A DNA stretch of 34,533 bases from the IMG/VR virus record IMGVR_UViG_3300027749_000302, positions 1 to 34,533 of that record. One strand, written 5' to 3'. Positions within the stretch are counted from its first letter, which is position 1, and each line of letters begins with the position of its first letter. Shown here one piece after another: positions 24,620-34,533 of this stretch. The DNA is from a virus. A model generated the notes under the pieces. It did no database searches. It was not told where the DNA came from and saw only the letters and a program-made list of their open reading frames with translations. The position numbers were made by a program, and so were the translations under genes.

Positions 24620-25618
24620 CTACAAAACCGGCGGTGAAGTAACACTTGGACCCGGCATTACTCCTCCATGTACATGTGTCAATAATGTTACCCCTGGAGC
24701 AAGTACATCTATACCCGCTACCACCGAACCGGCCGCTGTAATAGAGGTACCACCGATAATAGCACCAGCAACTATTAAATTCCCTGTCATTTTCGTTAAT
24801 GCAGCAACATGAGTTACTAACGGAGTTGTTAATGTTATAGTTGCCCCGGCTACCCCTGTTATTGCGGTGCCTGCAATCATAGATATATTAATTCCAGCCT
24901 TTTCTGATATAAATGTGCCGGCTGTCATGCTAATATAAGCTGGTACCAAAATATCAACAAAACCTACAGTTGGAGTTGGATATATTACAGCTGGTGGTCC
25001 AATAAAAAGAGCACCTGGTGACCTAATACTCAATAATCCCATAACAACTTGATTTGAAGTAATATTACCTTGTGCTACTATTGATTGTTGGCAACCTATG
25101 TCTCCCTGTACATAAAAATCTCCACCCACATTGAGAGTTTTACAAGTTAATTCTATATCATCACCTGAAGAAATTTTCAATTCTTTATTCGCAGTGAGAT
25201 TCATGTCACCTTTACTGGTTATATTACATGTGCCATTAACAATACCTGTATAATTTCCTTTGACACTTGAATATGAATCTCCTTTAACTTCAATTGCAGC
25301 ATTACCATCTATGTGTATACTACATGATCCTTTGACTGATACTTTTTTATTTTTTAAAATAATTTCATATCCATCACCATAAATCTTATGAACCTCATCA
25401 CCCTTTGGATGCATTTCCAGAAAAGTTCCATCTCTATGGTGTAATCTAAGTCTTTCACGTTTAGGTGTATCATCCATTTCAAATGAATGTCCCGATTCAG
25501 TTTGAATTACATTATTATATGGATAAACTGGTCGTGTACCTTCCTGTGCATCGGCCACAGAAGGTGGTTCCATTATTGTATTCCAATCACTGGAAGTTTT
25601 TCCGTTTGTGTATGCCAT
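24620..25618 (-). CDS. 5: Tail needle: gp5 C-terminal beta-helix piece as a separate gene
   Basis: A 332-aa protein corresponding to the C-terminal needle of T4 gp5 without the OB and lysozyme domains. Residues 30-85 contain the entry segment typical of needle proteins (IQTESGHSFEMDDTPKRERL, then HHRDGTFLEMHPKGDEVHKI). From residue 95 there are six successive octads of the VxGxxxxx type (VKGSCSIH, IDGNAAIE, VKGDSYSS, VKGNYTGI, VNGTCNIT, SKGDMNLT), the hallmark of the gp5 triple beta-helix. A glycine/alanine/threonine-rich second half follows, and the C-terminus shows THVHGGVMPGPS, as in many needle or PAAR-less spike proteins. It would form the trimeric membrane-puncturing tip below the gp27 hub. 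Confidence 0.88.
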   Translation of the reverse strand: MAYTNGKTSSDWNTIMEPPSVADAQEGTRPVYPYNNVIQTESGHSFEMDDTPKRERLRLHHRDGTFLEMHPKGDEVHKIYGDGYEIILKNKKVSVKGSCSIHIDGNAAIEVKGDSYSSVKGNYTGIVNGTCNITSKGDMNLTANKELKISSGDDIELTCKTLNVGGDFYVQGDIGCQQSIVAQGNITSNQVVMGLLSIRSPGALFIGPPAVIYPTPTVGFVDILVPAYISMTAGTFISEKAGINISMIAGTAITGVAGATITLTTPLVTHVAALTKMTGNLIVAGAIIGGTSITAAGSVVAGIDVLAPGVTLLTHVHGGVMPGPSVTSPPVL

Positions 25619-25626
25619 ATTATATG

Positions 25627-26445
25627 TTAACTCATTATTGTTGAAGCATTTGCAGTATTAGGACATTTAAATGGAGCACATTGTAATATTCCACCAAATG
25701 ATGATCCTAACGATGATGCCATATCCTTTAATGAATTCATAATATTACTCAAAAAACTAGAAATACATTCCATCAGATAACCAACAAATCTGACCGGTAA
25801 TGTTACAATCCAGGTTATTATTGCGGTTATTGCGGTTATAGTTGATAAGATACAAGTAATCATTTCTTTAATGAAACAAATTATTTTCATAATTTGTTTT
25901 AAAACTCTACAAACTTGTTCCACAAAATTTCTAATATGGTCTAATATTGGCATACTTGAAGCCGCTAGAAACCATGCATATCTAACTAATCTATAAGTTC
26001 TTACTTCAATAGATTTTTGAAATTTAAATAAACATGAATCGATGTTTATAGCACTAACGAAATTACAATTAAATGATAGATTTAAATTTGCAACACCAAC
26101 GCCAGTTTCACAATTAACACCTCTAAAATATGTTCCCGGTCCACTTGGAGCTCCCTTTTTTGGTCTGTCATTGGTTGATTTTTCTGGAGGTTGAGGAGGA
26201 TTTGATTCTTTAATTGTAAATCCACTACCTGTAACCCATTGGTCGACAGGTGTAGCATAAAAAGGTTCAACTTTACTGTTACATTTATCTCCGGCTGATG
26301 TGCTTGCATTTTGAGCACTATTAACCGCAGCACCCAATTCATCCGAGTTTACTTTAACACCTTTGAGTTGATAATCACCTGGTACTTTTGTATTATTGAC
26401 CTGGTTTATTGAAGAACCCAAACCAGCTATATCCAAATTGGCCAT
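25627..26445 (-). CDS. Hydrophobic, cysteine-rich protein between the two gp5 pieces
   Basis: A 272-aa protein I cannot match to a family. The N-terminal 110 residues are soluble and end in a proline-rich stretch (NPPQPPEKSTNDRPKKGAPS). The following part carries NCETGVG. From residue about 150 to 250 it is helical and hydrophobic (VLKQIMKIICFIKEMITCIL, 181-200; TITAITAIITWIVTLPVRFV, 202-221), with at least one good membrane-span candidate. It has ten cysteines. The gene sits exactly where T4 gp5 has its lysozyme domain, with short gaps to the OB-fold gene upstream (11 bases) and the needle gene downstream (eight bases). A membrane-acting component of the tail tip, released or inserted at infection, is a reasonable hypothesis. 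A tail chaperone or unrelated insert is the alternative. Confidence 0.65.
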   Translation of the reverse strand: MANLDIAGLGSSINQVNNTKVPGDYQLKGVKVNSDELGAAVNSAQNASTSAGDKCNSKVEPFYATPVDQWVTGSGFTIKESNPPQPPEKSTNDRPKKGAPSGPGTYFRGVNCETGVGVANLNLSFNCNFVSAINIDSCLFKFQKSIEVRTYRLVRYAWFLAASSMPILDHIRNFVEQVCRVLKQIMKIICFIKEMITCILSTITAITAIITWIVTLPVRFVGYLMECISSFLSNIMNSLKDMASSLGSSFGGILQCAPFKCPNTANASTIMS

Positions 26446-26456
26446 TTTGCAACCTT

Positions 26457-26771
26457 TTAATTGTTATTATCTTGTTTTATACCGGGTAAAACACCCATCA
26501 TTATTGGAAATTGTGCCGATTCACCATCCATAAAGAATCCAACAACCCATTCACCCGGCATTGGTGCCTGCCAAGTTTTTGATGCATTGACAGGATACAT
26601 TGGTTGTGACCAAGGTAAATCTTTAGTTGGCAATAATGCTTGGTTATCAGTATGCCATCCAAATATTCTAACCTGACATCTTCCCATATTCAATGGGTCC
26701 ATCCTATTCTCTATGATTCCCACCCACCAAACAAAGCCATTTAATCCTATAAAATTATTTTTATCTATCAT
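26457..26771 (-). CDS. 5: gp5 N-terminal OB-fold domain as a separate small gene
   Basis: A 104-aa protein that aligns along its whole length with the first domain of T4 gp5. FVWWVGIIENRMDPLNMGRC matches T4 'FVGVVEDRMDPLKLGR', QVRIFGWH matches VRVVGLH, and TKDLPWSQPMYPV matches TEKLPWMSVIQPI. PGEWVVGFFMDGESAQFPIM then MGVLPG matches the domain end. In T4 this OB domain plugs into the gp27 trimer. The reading frame stops after it, with no lysozyme domain, so the hub adaptor has become an independent polypeptide. It lies six bases after gene 27. Confidence 0.9.
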   Translation of the reverse strand: MIDKNNFIGLNGFVWWVGIIENRMDPLNMGRCQVRIFGWHTDNQALLPTKDLPWSQPMYPVNASKTWQAPMPGEWVVGFFMDGESAQFPIMMGVLPGIKQDNNN

Positions 26772-32147: not shown

Positions 32148-32179
32148 TTTTAAACAAACTGATTTGAAGGAGATATAAA

Positions 32180-32905
32180 ATGGCATTGCCAAAAATAGAT
32201 ACACCAATTTTTTACATTAAGTTGCCCTTATCAAAAAAGGAAATTAAATTTAGGCCTTTCCTGGTGAAGGAACAGAAGAATCTTTTGATGGCTCTTGAGG
32301 CTGATGACAAAGAAACTATTGAAAGAAACATCAGACAGATTTTGCATAATTGCACACTAACCGAAAATATCAACATTGATAAATTACCTGTTGTTGATGT
32401 TGAATATTATTTCATCAATCTTCGTGCAAAATCTGTTGGTGAAATTGTGGAAAACAATTACATCTGCAATAATGAAGTTGAAGGTGAAAGGTGTGGAAAT
32501 AAAATGAAAGTTGAAATCGACTTGAATGAAATTCAGGTTGGTGAAGTTAACGATGACGATTCCAATATTCAACTTACAAATAAAATATCAATTAAGTTAA
32601 AGTATCCAGAATTTTCTATTATAGAAAAATTAACCGAAAGTGAAAATTCTGTAGAAACTGCATTTAAAATTATTGTGGATTCTATTGAACATATTTTTGA
32701 TGGTGACCAGTATTATTATGCAAATGAATCCACACCGCAAGAATTGATGGATTTTTTAGAGTCATTGAACCAAGACCAATTTGTGAAATTAGAAAAATTC
32801 TTTGATACAATTCCAAAGATTAGAAAGGATGTTGAAATTAAATGTAATAAATGTGGATTTGACCACAGTATTACAGTGGAGGGACTTGAAAATTTTTTCG
32901 GATAA
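32180..32905 (+). CDS. 26: Baseplate hub/tail assembly chaperone gp26 (zero-frame product)
   Basis: A 241-aa protein of the T4 gp26 family (T4 208 aa). KEIKFRPFLVKEQKNLLMAL (residues 20-39) is its well-known N-terminal signature, followed by INIDKLPVVDVEYYFINLRA. A zinc-binding-like site is CNNEVEGERCG...CNKCG. The domain ends GLENFF before the stop at 32903. A strong ribosome site (GAAGGAGATATAAA) precedes the ATG. gp26 is needed for hub assembly, and its gene order before the tape-measure region parallels the G protein of lambda. The last codons contain a slippery run that leads into a -1 frame extension. Confidence 0.88.
   Translation: MALPKIDTPIFYIKLPLSKKEIKFRPFLVKEQKNLLMALEADDKETIERNIRQILHNCTLTENINIDKLPVVDVEYYFINLRAKSVGEIVENNYICNNEVEGERCGNKMKVEIDLNEIQVGEVNDDDSNIQLTNKISIKLKYPEFSIIEKLTESENSVETAFKIIVDSIEHIFDGDQYYYANESTPQELMDFLESLNQDQFVKLEKFFDTIPKIRKDVEIKCNKCGFDHSITVEGLENFFG
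32890..32899 (+). promoter_or_regulatory. Predicted -1 ribosomal frameshift slippery site
   Basis: The sequence AAATTTTTTC at the end of gene 26 holds two overlapping X-XXY-YYZ heptamers in the zero frame, A-AAT-TTT (32890-32896) and T-TTT-TTC (32893-32899). The zero-frame stop follows at 32903, and the -1 frame is open from 32890 to 33084. No strong downstream hairpin or pseudoknot was spotted by eye. Confidence 0.7.
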
Positions 32906-33084
32906 TTTTTCGTCATGATAACTTGAGTAATTATTATAAAACAAATTTCTCTTTGATGCAACACCATAAGTACAGTCTTACTGAATTGGAAGCAATGATA
33001 CCTTGGGAAAGAGAAATTTATGTGACCTTATTGATACAATATATCGAACAAGAAAATGAACGGATAAAACAACAGAAACGATAA
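32899..33084 (+). CDS. Frameshift extension of gp26 (GT-like tail chaperone domain)
   Basis: The -1 frame, read after the slippery site, adds 61 residues: RIIFRHDNLSNYYKTNFSLM, then QHHKYSLTELEAMIPWEREI and YVTLLIQYIEQENERIKQQK, ending at TAA 33082. A fused product would have about 301 residues. The 'YSLTELEAMIPWEREIYV' block is what follows gp26-type chaperones in phages of this class and resembles the T domain of lambda GT. It has an internal ATG at 32956 but no ribosome site there, so production by frameshift is more likely than as a separate gene. The stop overlaps the lysozyme ATG as TAATG. Confidence 0.75.
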   Translation, partial: RIIFRHDNLSNYYKTNFSLMQHHKYSLTELEAMIPWEREIYVTLLIQYIEQENERIKQQKR

Positions 33085-34533
33085 TGGCATATTTACCAAC
33101 AGTAAATGAATTTCCTGAATCAGTAGATAAGGATTTGGTTAAAGAAAAGATAAACAAAATTGTCAAATCACTTAAAATGAGATTTGATGTTTCCACTTTG
33201 TCTACAAAAATAGTAACTGCATATCCAAAATTGAATGAAGAAATTAAACCAGCATCGATTAAGAAAGAAGGCATCAATGTTAATATACTGAAAAGATTAT
33301 ATGCATTTATTGTTAGTGATGAATATGCAAAAGAACAGACTTTAAAATTTGAAAAAAAGGAAAAGGAAATAACCGAAAAGGAAGATGAAGAAAGGGAATT
33401 AACAATTATAAAGTATGTTGCTGTTGAAGGTGAAAAGGAAAATGAAGAAAAAGAAGAAGGTATTTTAAGCAAACTATTCCGTTATTATTCATATTATAAA
33501 ATGGGAAAGTTTGCTTATGATCATTGGTCCCAAATTGAAAAGTTTTTGGGTATAGAGGGTCTTTCTACAACTATAAGCAATATCAGCAAAGAGTTAGGTA
33601 TTGACAAAATAATTGATAGTATTTCCCACACGATTAATGATATTATGAAAGGTTTTTCTGAAAGAACAGGAATAAATTTAGGCAGTTTTGGTGGTTCTGC
33701 GGGGTCCGATTACGTTCCTGATGGATTGACCAAAAATGAAAGATCCAAAGAAGCTATGAAATTTTTTATGTCTAAGGGATGGACAAAAGAACAATCCGCA
33801 GGCATTGTTGGTAATTTAATGGTCGAATCTGGTGGTTTTAGTGAAGGTGTTATTTCCGGCAAAAAGAAAGGTGACAGTGGAAAAGCCGTGGGTATTGCCC
33901 AATGGCATCCTGATAGACAAGAAAATTTTAAGAAAAGATATGGAAAGTCAATTGAAGGTTCATCATTCAAAGAACAATTGGATTTTGTCAATTATGAACT
34001 AACTCAGGGTCAAGAGAGAGGTGCAGGTAAACAAATTAAGGCAACTACATCAGCTGAAGAATCAGCAAGAGTCACCGATATAGCGTATGAGCGATCATCT
34101 GGAGAACATAGAGGCAAAAGAGTAGGATATGCCAAAGCACTGGTTTCTGAAGATTTAACCACAACCACACCAGCAACTACTCCAGTAACAACCACACCAG
34201 CAACTACTCCAGTAACAACCACACCAGCAACTACTCCATCAACACCAGCAACTACTCCAGCAACACCAGCAGCAACACCAGCACCAGCAACACCAGCACC
34301 AGCAACACCAGTATCACAAACATTTCCTGTCACAGATACAGGAAAAGCAACAAGAGTACCAAAGACACCTTCCGGACCACTAGATTTAGCTCAATCATTT
34401 TTGGGTAAAAGTGAAGGAAATGCAGATGATGAATTAAATGCATTTATCGGACAGAACTTTGGATCGTTTAATGTTAAGAAAACACCTTGGTGTGCAGCAT
34501 TTGTAAATTCTGTACTACACGCTTCCGGTTATA
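33084..34533 (+). CDS. Large tail protein with tail-lysozyme and CHAP-like (TIGR02594) domains, cut by window edge
   Basis: The frame is open from the ATG at 33084 to the window end (483 codons, no stop). Residues 1-195 are helical and charged, with a KKEKEITEKEDEE stretch. Residues about 215-355 are a phage-tail-lysozyme domain: MKFFMSKGWTKEQSAGIVGN, then MVESGGFSEG with the presumed catalytic Glu248, and GIAQWHPDRQENF. A Thr/Pro/Ala linker spans about 358-412. Residues about 436-483 begin a second domain like TIGR02594, PWCAAFVNSVLHASGY, with the conserved Cys. It would cut peptidoglycan during DNA entry. Its place behind the gp26 frameshift pair is where a tape measure usually lies, so it may be the tape measure itself or a hub lysozyme. 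No ribosome site precedes the ATG, so coupling through TAATG is likely. Confidence 0.82.
   Translation, partial: MAYLPTVNEFPESVDKDLVKEKINKIVKSLKMRFDVSTLSTKIVTAYPKLNEEIKPASIKKEGINVNILKRLYAFIVSDEYAKEQTLKFEKKEKEITEKEDEERELTIIKYVAVEGEKENEEKEEGILSKLFRYYSYYKMGKFAYDHWSQIEKFLGIEGLSTTISNISKELGIDKIIDSISHTINDIMKGFSERTGINLGSFGGSAGSDYVPDGLTKNERSKEAMKFFMSKGWTKEQSAGIVGNLMVESGGFSEGVISGKKKGDSGKAVGIAQWHPDRQENFKKRYGKSIEGSSFKEQLDFVNYELTQGQERGAGKQIKATTSAEESARVTDIAYERSSGEHRGKRVGYAKALVSEDLTTTTPATTPVTTTPATTPVTTTPATTPSTPATTPATPAATPAPATPAPATPVSQTFPVTDTGKATRVPKTPSGPLDLAQSFLGKSEGNADDELNAFIGQNFGSFNVKKTPWCAAFVNSVLHASGY
34162..34314 (+). repeat. 27-bp repeats coding a Thr/Pro/Ala linker
   Basis: Three 27-bp units (beginning ACAACCACACCAGCAACTAC) start at 34162, 34189 and 34216, the third diverging at its end. 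They grade into shorter CCAGCAACA and CCAGCACCA repeats up to about 34314. They code for TTPATTPV-type units joining the lysozyme domain to the CHAP-like domain. The linker length is probably variable between relatives. Confidence 0.88.

Follow-up and report, generated by a model that had tools for sequence, protein, structure and literature searches.

We analysed a window of 34,533 nucleotides, which is the whole of the viral DNA considered here. Gene 26 (32180..32905, + strand) encodes gp26, a protein of 241 aa read in the 0 frame, which would be the short, TAC-N or G-like form of a chaperone. Gene 26 has a good ribosome site, with the SD sequence AAGGAGA at 32167-32173. In a profile search gp26 was a member of the T4_baseplate family (PF12322, 8.5e-59, exceeding the gathering score), and it also matches phrog_150 (baseplate hub) at 2e-66. 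A sequence search for a solved-structure relative of gp26 found none.

The 3' end of gene 26 reads GAA AAT TTT TTC GGA TAA, with the stop codon at 32903-32905. The -1 frame is open from 32890 only, following a TGA at 32887-32889, and continues to a TAA at 33082-33084. Because this TGA is the last -1-frame stop upstream and the gene 26 stop lies downstream, a -1 shift is confined to the 13 bases between them, and this interval contains the slippery run. Two heptamers overlap here on the + strand, A_AAT_TTT (32890..32896) and T_TTT_TTC (32893..32899). A slip on T_TTT_TTC adds 61 codons (RIIFRHDNL...QQKR), the same count as in the preliminary description of this locus, and the predicted fusion is 301 aa long. 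The extension (32899..33084 with its stop, + strand) is homologous to gp51 (phrog_634, baseplate hub assembly catalyst, 1.3e-29) and would form the gp51-like C-terminal domain of a GT-like, or TAC-NC, fusion.

Conservation of the slippery site and the -1 frame

We fetched 80 relatives from IMG/VR and retained 42 as non-redundant, at a DNA difference above 10%. Each of the 42 carries T_TTT_TTC in frame just 5' of the gene 26 stop and encodes the gp51 extension in frame -1. Away from this site, only 10/169 (6%) of the Phe-Phe codon pairs in the loci had the form T plus TTTTTC, which excludes chance as the reason for 42/42 at the site. The heptamer is also present in 60/60 distinct S-PM2-like loci and, across several phage families, in Aeh1, OLIVR5, KVP40, P-SSM4, S-SRM01, BUCT608 and Ci1. 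Melnitz and phiN3 carry T_TTT_TTT variants. The preliminary description had proposed aligning related T4-like phages to learn whether heptamer and -1 frame go together, and in close and distant relatives alike both are conserved. That description had also pointed to both overlapping heptamers. Both are indeed in frame, but only T_TTT_TTC is conserved: the codon before TTT TTC is AAT in 13 of the 42 relatives, AGT in 28 and GAT in one. Because A_AAT_TTT occurs in just 13/42, T_TTT_TTC is likely the functional site.

A T-rich run could also produce a fusion if transcriptional slippage on the T6 run added or removed an mRNA base, the product then being made by standard decoding. The six T's, and the nine in Melnitz, speak for this explanation. 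However, six T's are short for transcriptional slippage, nearly all relatives have exactly T6C and keep the T_TTT_TTC codon phase, and the hairpins or SD-like elements of relatives, described below, are typical of ribosomal frameshifting. We consider transcriptional slippage very improbable.

Frameshifting is probably not universal in the gp26/gp51 family, as the canonical heptamer is found in 0/14 Ackermannviridae, although the -1 frame is kept. In Ackermannviridae (L182-L199, L006, L097 and L100) gene 26 ends in a near-invariant ATT TTC AT[TC] TAA, which contains no X_XXY_YYZ heptamer. The stop context in this family is TAATG in the Dickeya phage relatives and TAATT in those that are Kuttervirus-like.

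Among the relatives, the 19 codons that separate the heptamer from an ATG at 32956 have a pN/pS of 0.159 when read in frame -1, indicating purifying selection, compared with about 1.15 in the other two frames. After this first ATG, pN/pS is 0.129 in the -1 frame and above 1 in the others. The preliminary description had noted that the internal ATG lacks a ribosome site; this ATG belongs to the -1 frame, and we likewise found no SD for it. Nor is it conserved as a start codon, since 7/42 relatives carry ATA, ATT or GTG at this position. An ATG or GTG between the heptamer and the position of 32956 is present in 3/42 relatives only, and the -1 frame of the window has none 5' of 32956. Across the 42 relatives, then, the -1 frame is selected as a protein for which no separate start codon is conserved.

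These data bear on the possibility that gp51 is a separate small gene, translated by internal initiation or by termination-reinitiation after the gene 26 stop, with TTG 32923, ATG 32956 or some non-standard codon close to the stop as candidate starts. Public records do annotate gp51 as a CDS of its own, and TAATG occurs at the gene 26 stop in KVP40 and some Ackermannviridae. Against this, the window offers neither an upstream ATG or GTG in frame nor an SD, and low pN/pS before 32956, loss of the ATG in some relatives and the scarcity of upstream starts make an independent start a poor explanation in this clade. A separate gene would also leave the invariant heptamer unexplained, and we judge it improbable.

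The fused form does exist as a single frame in T4-type phages, which would fit a -1 frame left over as a remnant, or a once-continuous gene interrupted by a sequencing error. Comparison with relatives refutes both: 42 non-redundant contigs, and cultured phages too, show the same frame relation, kept under strong purifying selection, and we assign this explanation practically no weight. An HMM of the relatives' fusions matches the single-frame T4-type gp51 colinearly through the junction. The gp51 of RB27 matched at 4.4e-9 (model 140-284) and that of Aes012 at 2.2e-17 (model 163-293), both E-values being for an 11-sequence set, and the extension alone matches the C-termini of these two proteins by HMM. 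Because the HMM match spans the junction, T4-type gp51 looks like a gp26-like domain plus the extension.

Candidate stimulatory elements

The preliminary description had suggested folding the 60 bases after 32899, and these fold no better than shuffles (z = +0.37). Compared with dinucleotide shuffles, neither 60 nor 100 nt of downstream sequence in the window gave a stem-loop signal, and the ungapped 42-sequence alignment yielded no consensus RNA structure. On the upstream side, an SD-like GGAGGG (32878..32883, + strand) lies 9-10 nt 5' of the slippery heptamer. Its anti-SD pairing of -9.8 kcal/mol ranks within the top 2% when the encoded peptide is recoded synonymously. The position of GGAGGG resembles that of the stimulatory SD of E. 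coli dnaX, and the element may stimulate frameshifting in the window. It is clade-specific, being strong in 13/42 relatives (about a third) with a bimodal distribution. As a universal stimulator the SD-like element was rejected, because it is not enriched on average (mean rank 0.45).

Marine relatives have hairpins just 3' of the heptamer, with z < -1.5 in 41/56 sequences, a few of these 56 perhaps having misplaced sites. The strong hairpins of marine cyanophage relatives start about 5-10 nt after the heptamer. With mononucleotide shuffles, z was -6.0 for S-PM2, -5.5 for AG-345-L05 and -5.1 for Agrobacterium phage OLIVR5. We set aside the idea that a stronger SD goes with less downstream folding, since the relation was weak (Spearman -0.27, p = 0.08, uncorrected for relatedness). 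Stimulators seem to differ between lineages.

The downstream gene

The next gene (33084..34533, + strand) extends past the end of the record and encodes a tail protein with a Phage_lysozyme2 match. A near-identical contig, L007, holds a complete copy, 696 aa long, which combines tail lysozyme and CHAP domains. We regard this gene as a tape-measure candidate: the tape-measure/tail PHROG matches of the window ORF fall mainly on its lysozyme domain, and hydrophobic segments and similarity to KARL-1 gp29 (T4-type) gave nothing for tape-measure identity.

The same gene position is occupied by differing peptidoglycan hydrolase domains in relatives L007 (lysozyme2 + CHAP), L010 (SLT + M15) and L037 (M23). 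In the window, a Thr/Pro/Ala-rich linker of TPATTP-like repeats (34160-34320) lies between the lysozyme and CHAP domains. The gp5 hub/needle seems to be split at 24620-26771 on the - strand: 26457-26771 matches the gp5 N-terminus, 24620-25618 matches the C-terminal trimer part, and a 272-aa ORF (25627-26445) lies in between. No lysozyme domain was found in this split gp5 region; the ORF at 33084 carries one instead.

The next gene has no SD, and its start codon overlaps the gp51-frame stop (TAATG) at 33084. In 41/41 close relatives the distance of its ATG from the gp51-frame stop is -1 to +6 nt, again without an SD, and mean SD pairing is -0.9 kcal/mol for this gene versus -6.05 for gene 26. 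About 90% of next-gene starts in a wider set of 69 fall within 10 nt of the gp51-frame stop, and a few members of that set (Aeh1, Melnitz and phiN3) have an SD at this start. The slipped ribosomes would be those able to reinitiate at the next gene, and the long chaperone and the tape-measure candidate would then be made in step. This packing suggests that one slip could fix the stoichiometry of chaperone and ruler. That frameshifting may in addition govern how much of the next tail protein is made is a tentative proposal, which we hold to be possible rather than probable.

A probable frameshifted chaperone gene and its known counterparts

We modelled gp26 with AlphaFold2 from 58 sequences, and the model was confident (pLDDT 88.6). 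Foldseek matched the model to many predicted viral baseplate hub proteins, and nothing in the PDB was significant. With VIA-align, the top solved matches to gp26 residues of about 1-91 were 3fgx (Z 7.5), 3klu (YqbN, 7.4) and 2ob9 (6.8), followed by 5ir0 (Z 5.8) and then by a row at 4.2. Of these, 2ob9 is the HK97 tail assembly chaperone, and YqbN belongs to the XkdN-like chaperones. The Z values to TAC folds (6-8) are middling yet above those of unrelated rows. The model thus supports, without proving, a TAC-like fold for the N-terminal domain of gp26, resembling the HK97 tail assembly chaperone.

The preliminary description had proposed a programmed -1 frameshift in gene 26, and the invariant heptamer, the selected -1 frame and the colinear single-frame gp51 all support it. 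The lack of RNA structure above chance 3' of the site in the window, the patchy SD-like element, the Ackermannviridae and the middling Z values count against it. We conclude with high confidence that gene 26 and the -1-frame gp51 extension belong together, in a T4-like phage, as a single frameshifted gene for a tail-assembly chaperone. We infer both the slip itself and its efficiency: most ribosomes would stop at 32903 and release gp26 as the short form, while a minority would slip back one base on T_TTT_TTC, the two Phe-tRNAs pairing anew with UUU, and read on as far as 33084, producing the 301-aa gp26-gp51 fusion as the long form. If lambda G/GT and T4 gp26/gp51 are a guide, gp26 and the fusion would act in assembly, where both forms together may hold the tape measure or hub protein in a state competent for assembly and bring in tail tube/hub subunits.

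The comparison with lambda G/GT had also been made in the preliminary description, and as an analogy it is a good one, given the conserved heptamer and -1 frame, an extension in which no start codon is conserved, the colinearity with gp51 and an N-terminal domain resembling the HK97 chaperone. Lambda gpG/gpGT comprise a short form and a rare -1 fusion made near the short-gene stop, and act as non-virion assembly chaperones (PMC5009743). The window phage likewise has a predicted short form and a -1 fusion, with the shift near the short-gene stop, but here the next gene is a tape-measure candidate. Lambda slips on GGGAAAG whereas the site here is T_TTT_TTC, and the likeness proposed is one of mechanism.

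T4 gp26 and gp51 are listed among hub assembly chaperones (PMC3004832). Their domains are homologous to those described here, with gp26 matching the short form and gp51 aligning with the fusion through the junction. T4-type phages differ from the window phage in having two separate genes and no frameshift; in RB27, Aes012 and KARL-1 the two are encoded on opposite strands.

At the TAC locus of Vandenendeviridae (phage Adele), TAC-N has a conserved -1 slippery GTTTTT, and the extension is often annotated as a separate gene (PMC12846349). The window locus likewise has a conserved -1 slippery run and an extension that is often annotated separately, but Adele belongs to another phage family and has another chaperone sequence. 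In the public annotations that we viewed (L001, L005, L088, L089, L091 and L093), gp51 has a separate start, which often truncates the conserved N-terminal part, and none marks a frameshift. The fusion is usually missed in public annotations, and gp51 is given a false start.

The frameshifted TAC-N/TAC-NC of T4-like phages are the subject of Vladimirov, Gautam and Davidson (2022, Virology 566:9-15), as cited in PMC10885494 and PMC12846349, and the second of these citing papers describes a poly-T -1 signal in the TAC-N genes of T4-like phages. This kind of gene is thus already described for T4-like phages, and the window phage is a further example with the same gene pair (26 and 51). It differs in being uncultivated and in having no clear 3' hairpin and an upstream SD-like element. 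The abstract of the earlier study reportedly concerns genes 26 and 51, with frameshifting kept in several T4-like groups, and T4 itself is said there to have separate genes 26 and 51. Our independent data from uncultivated phages support the conclusion that in many T4-like lineages gp26/gp51 forms a single frameshifted chaperone gene; they also support the two-gene arrangement of T4 as a variant of this frameshifted gene.
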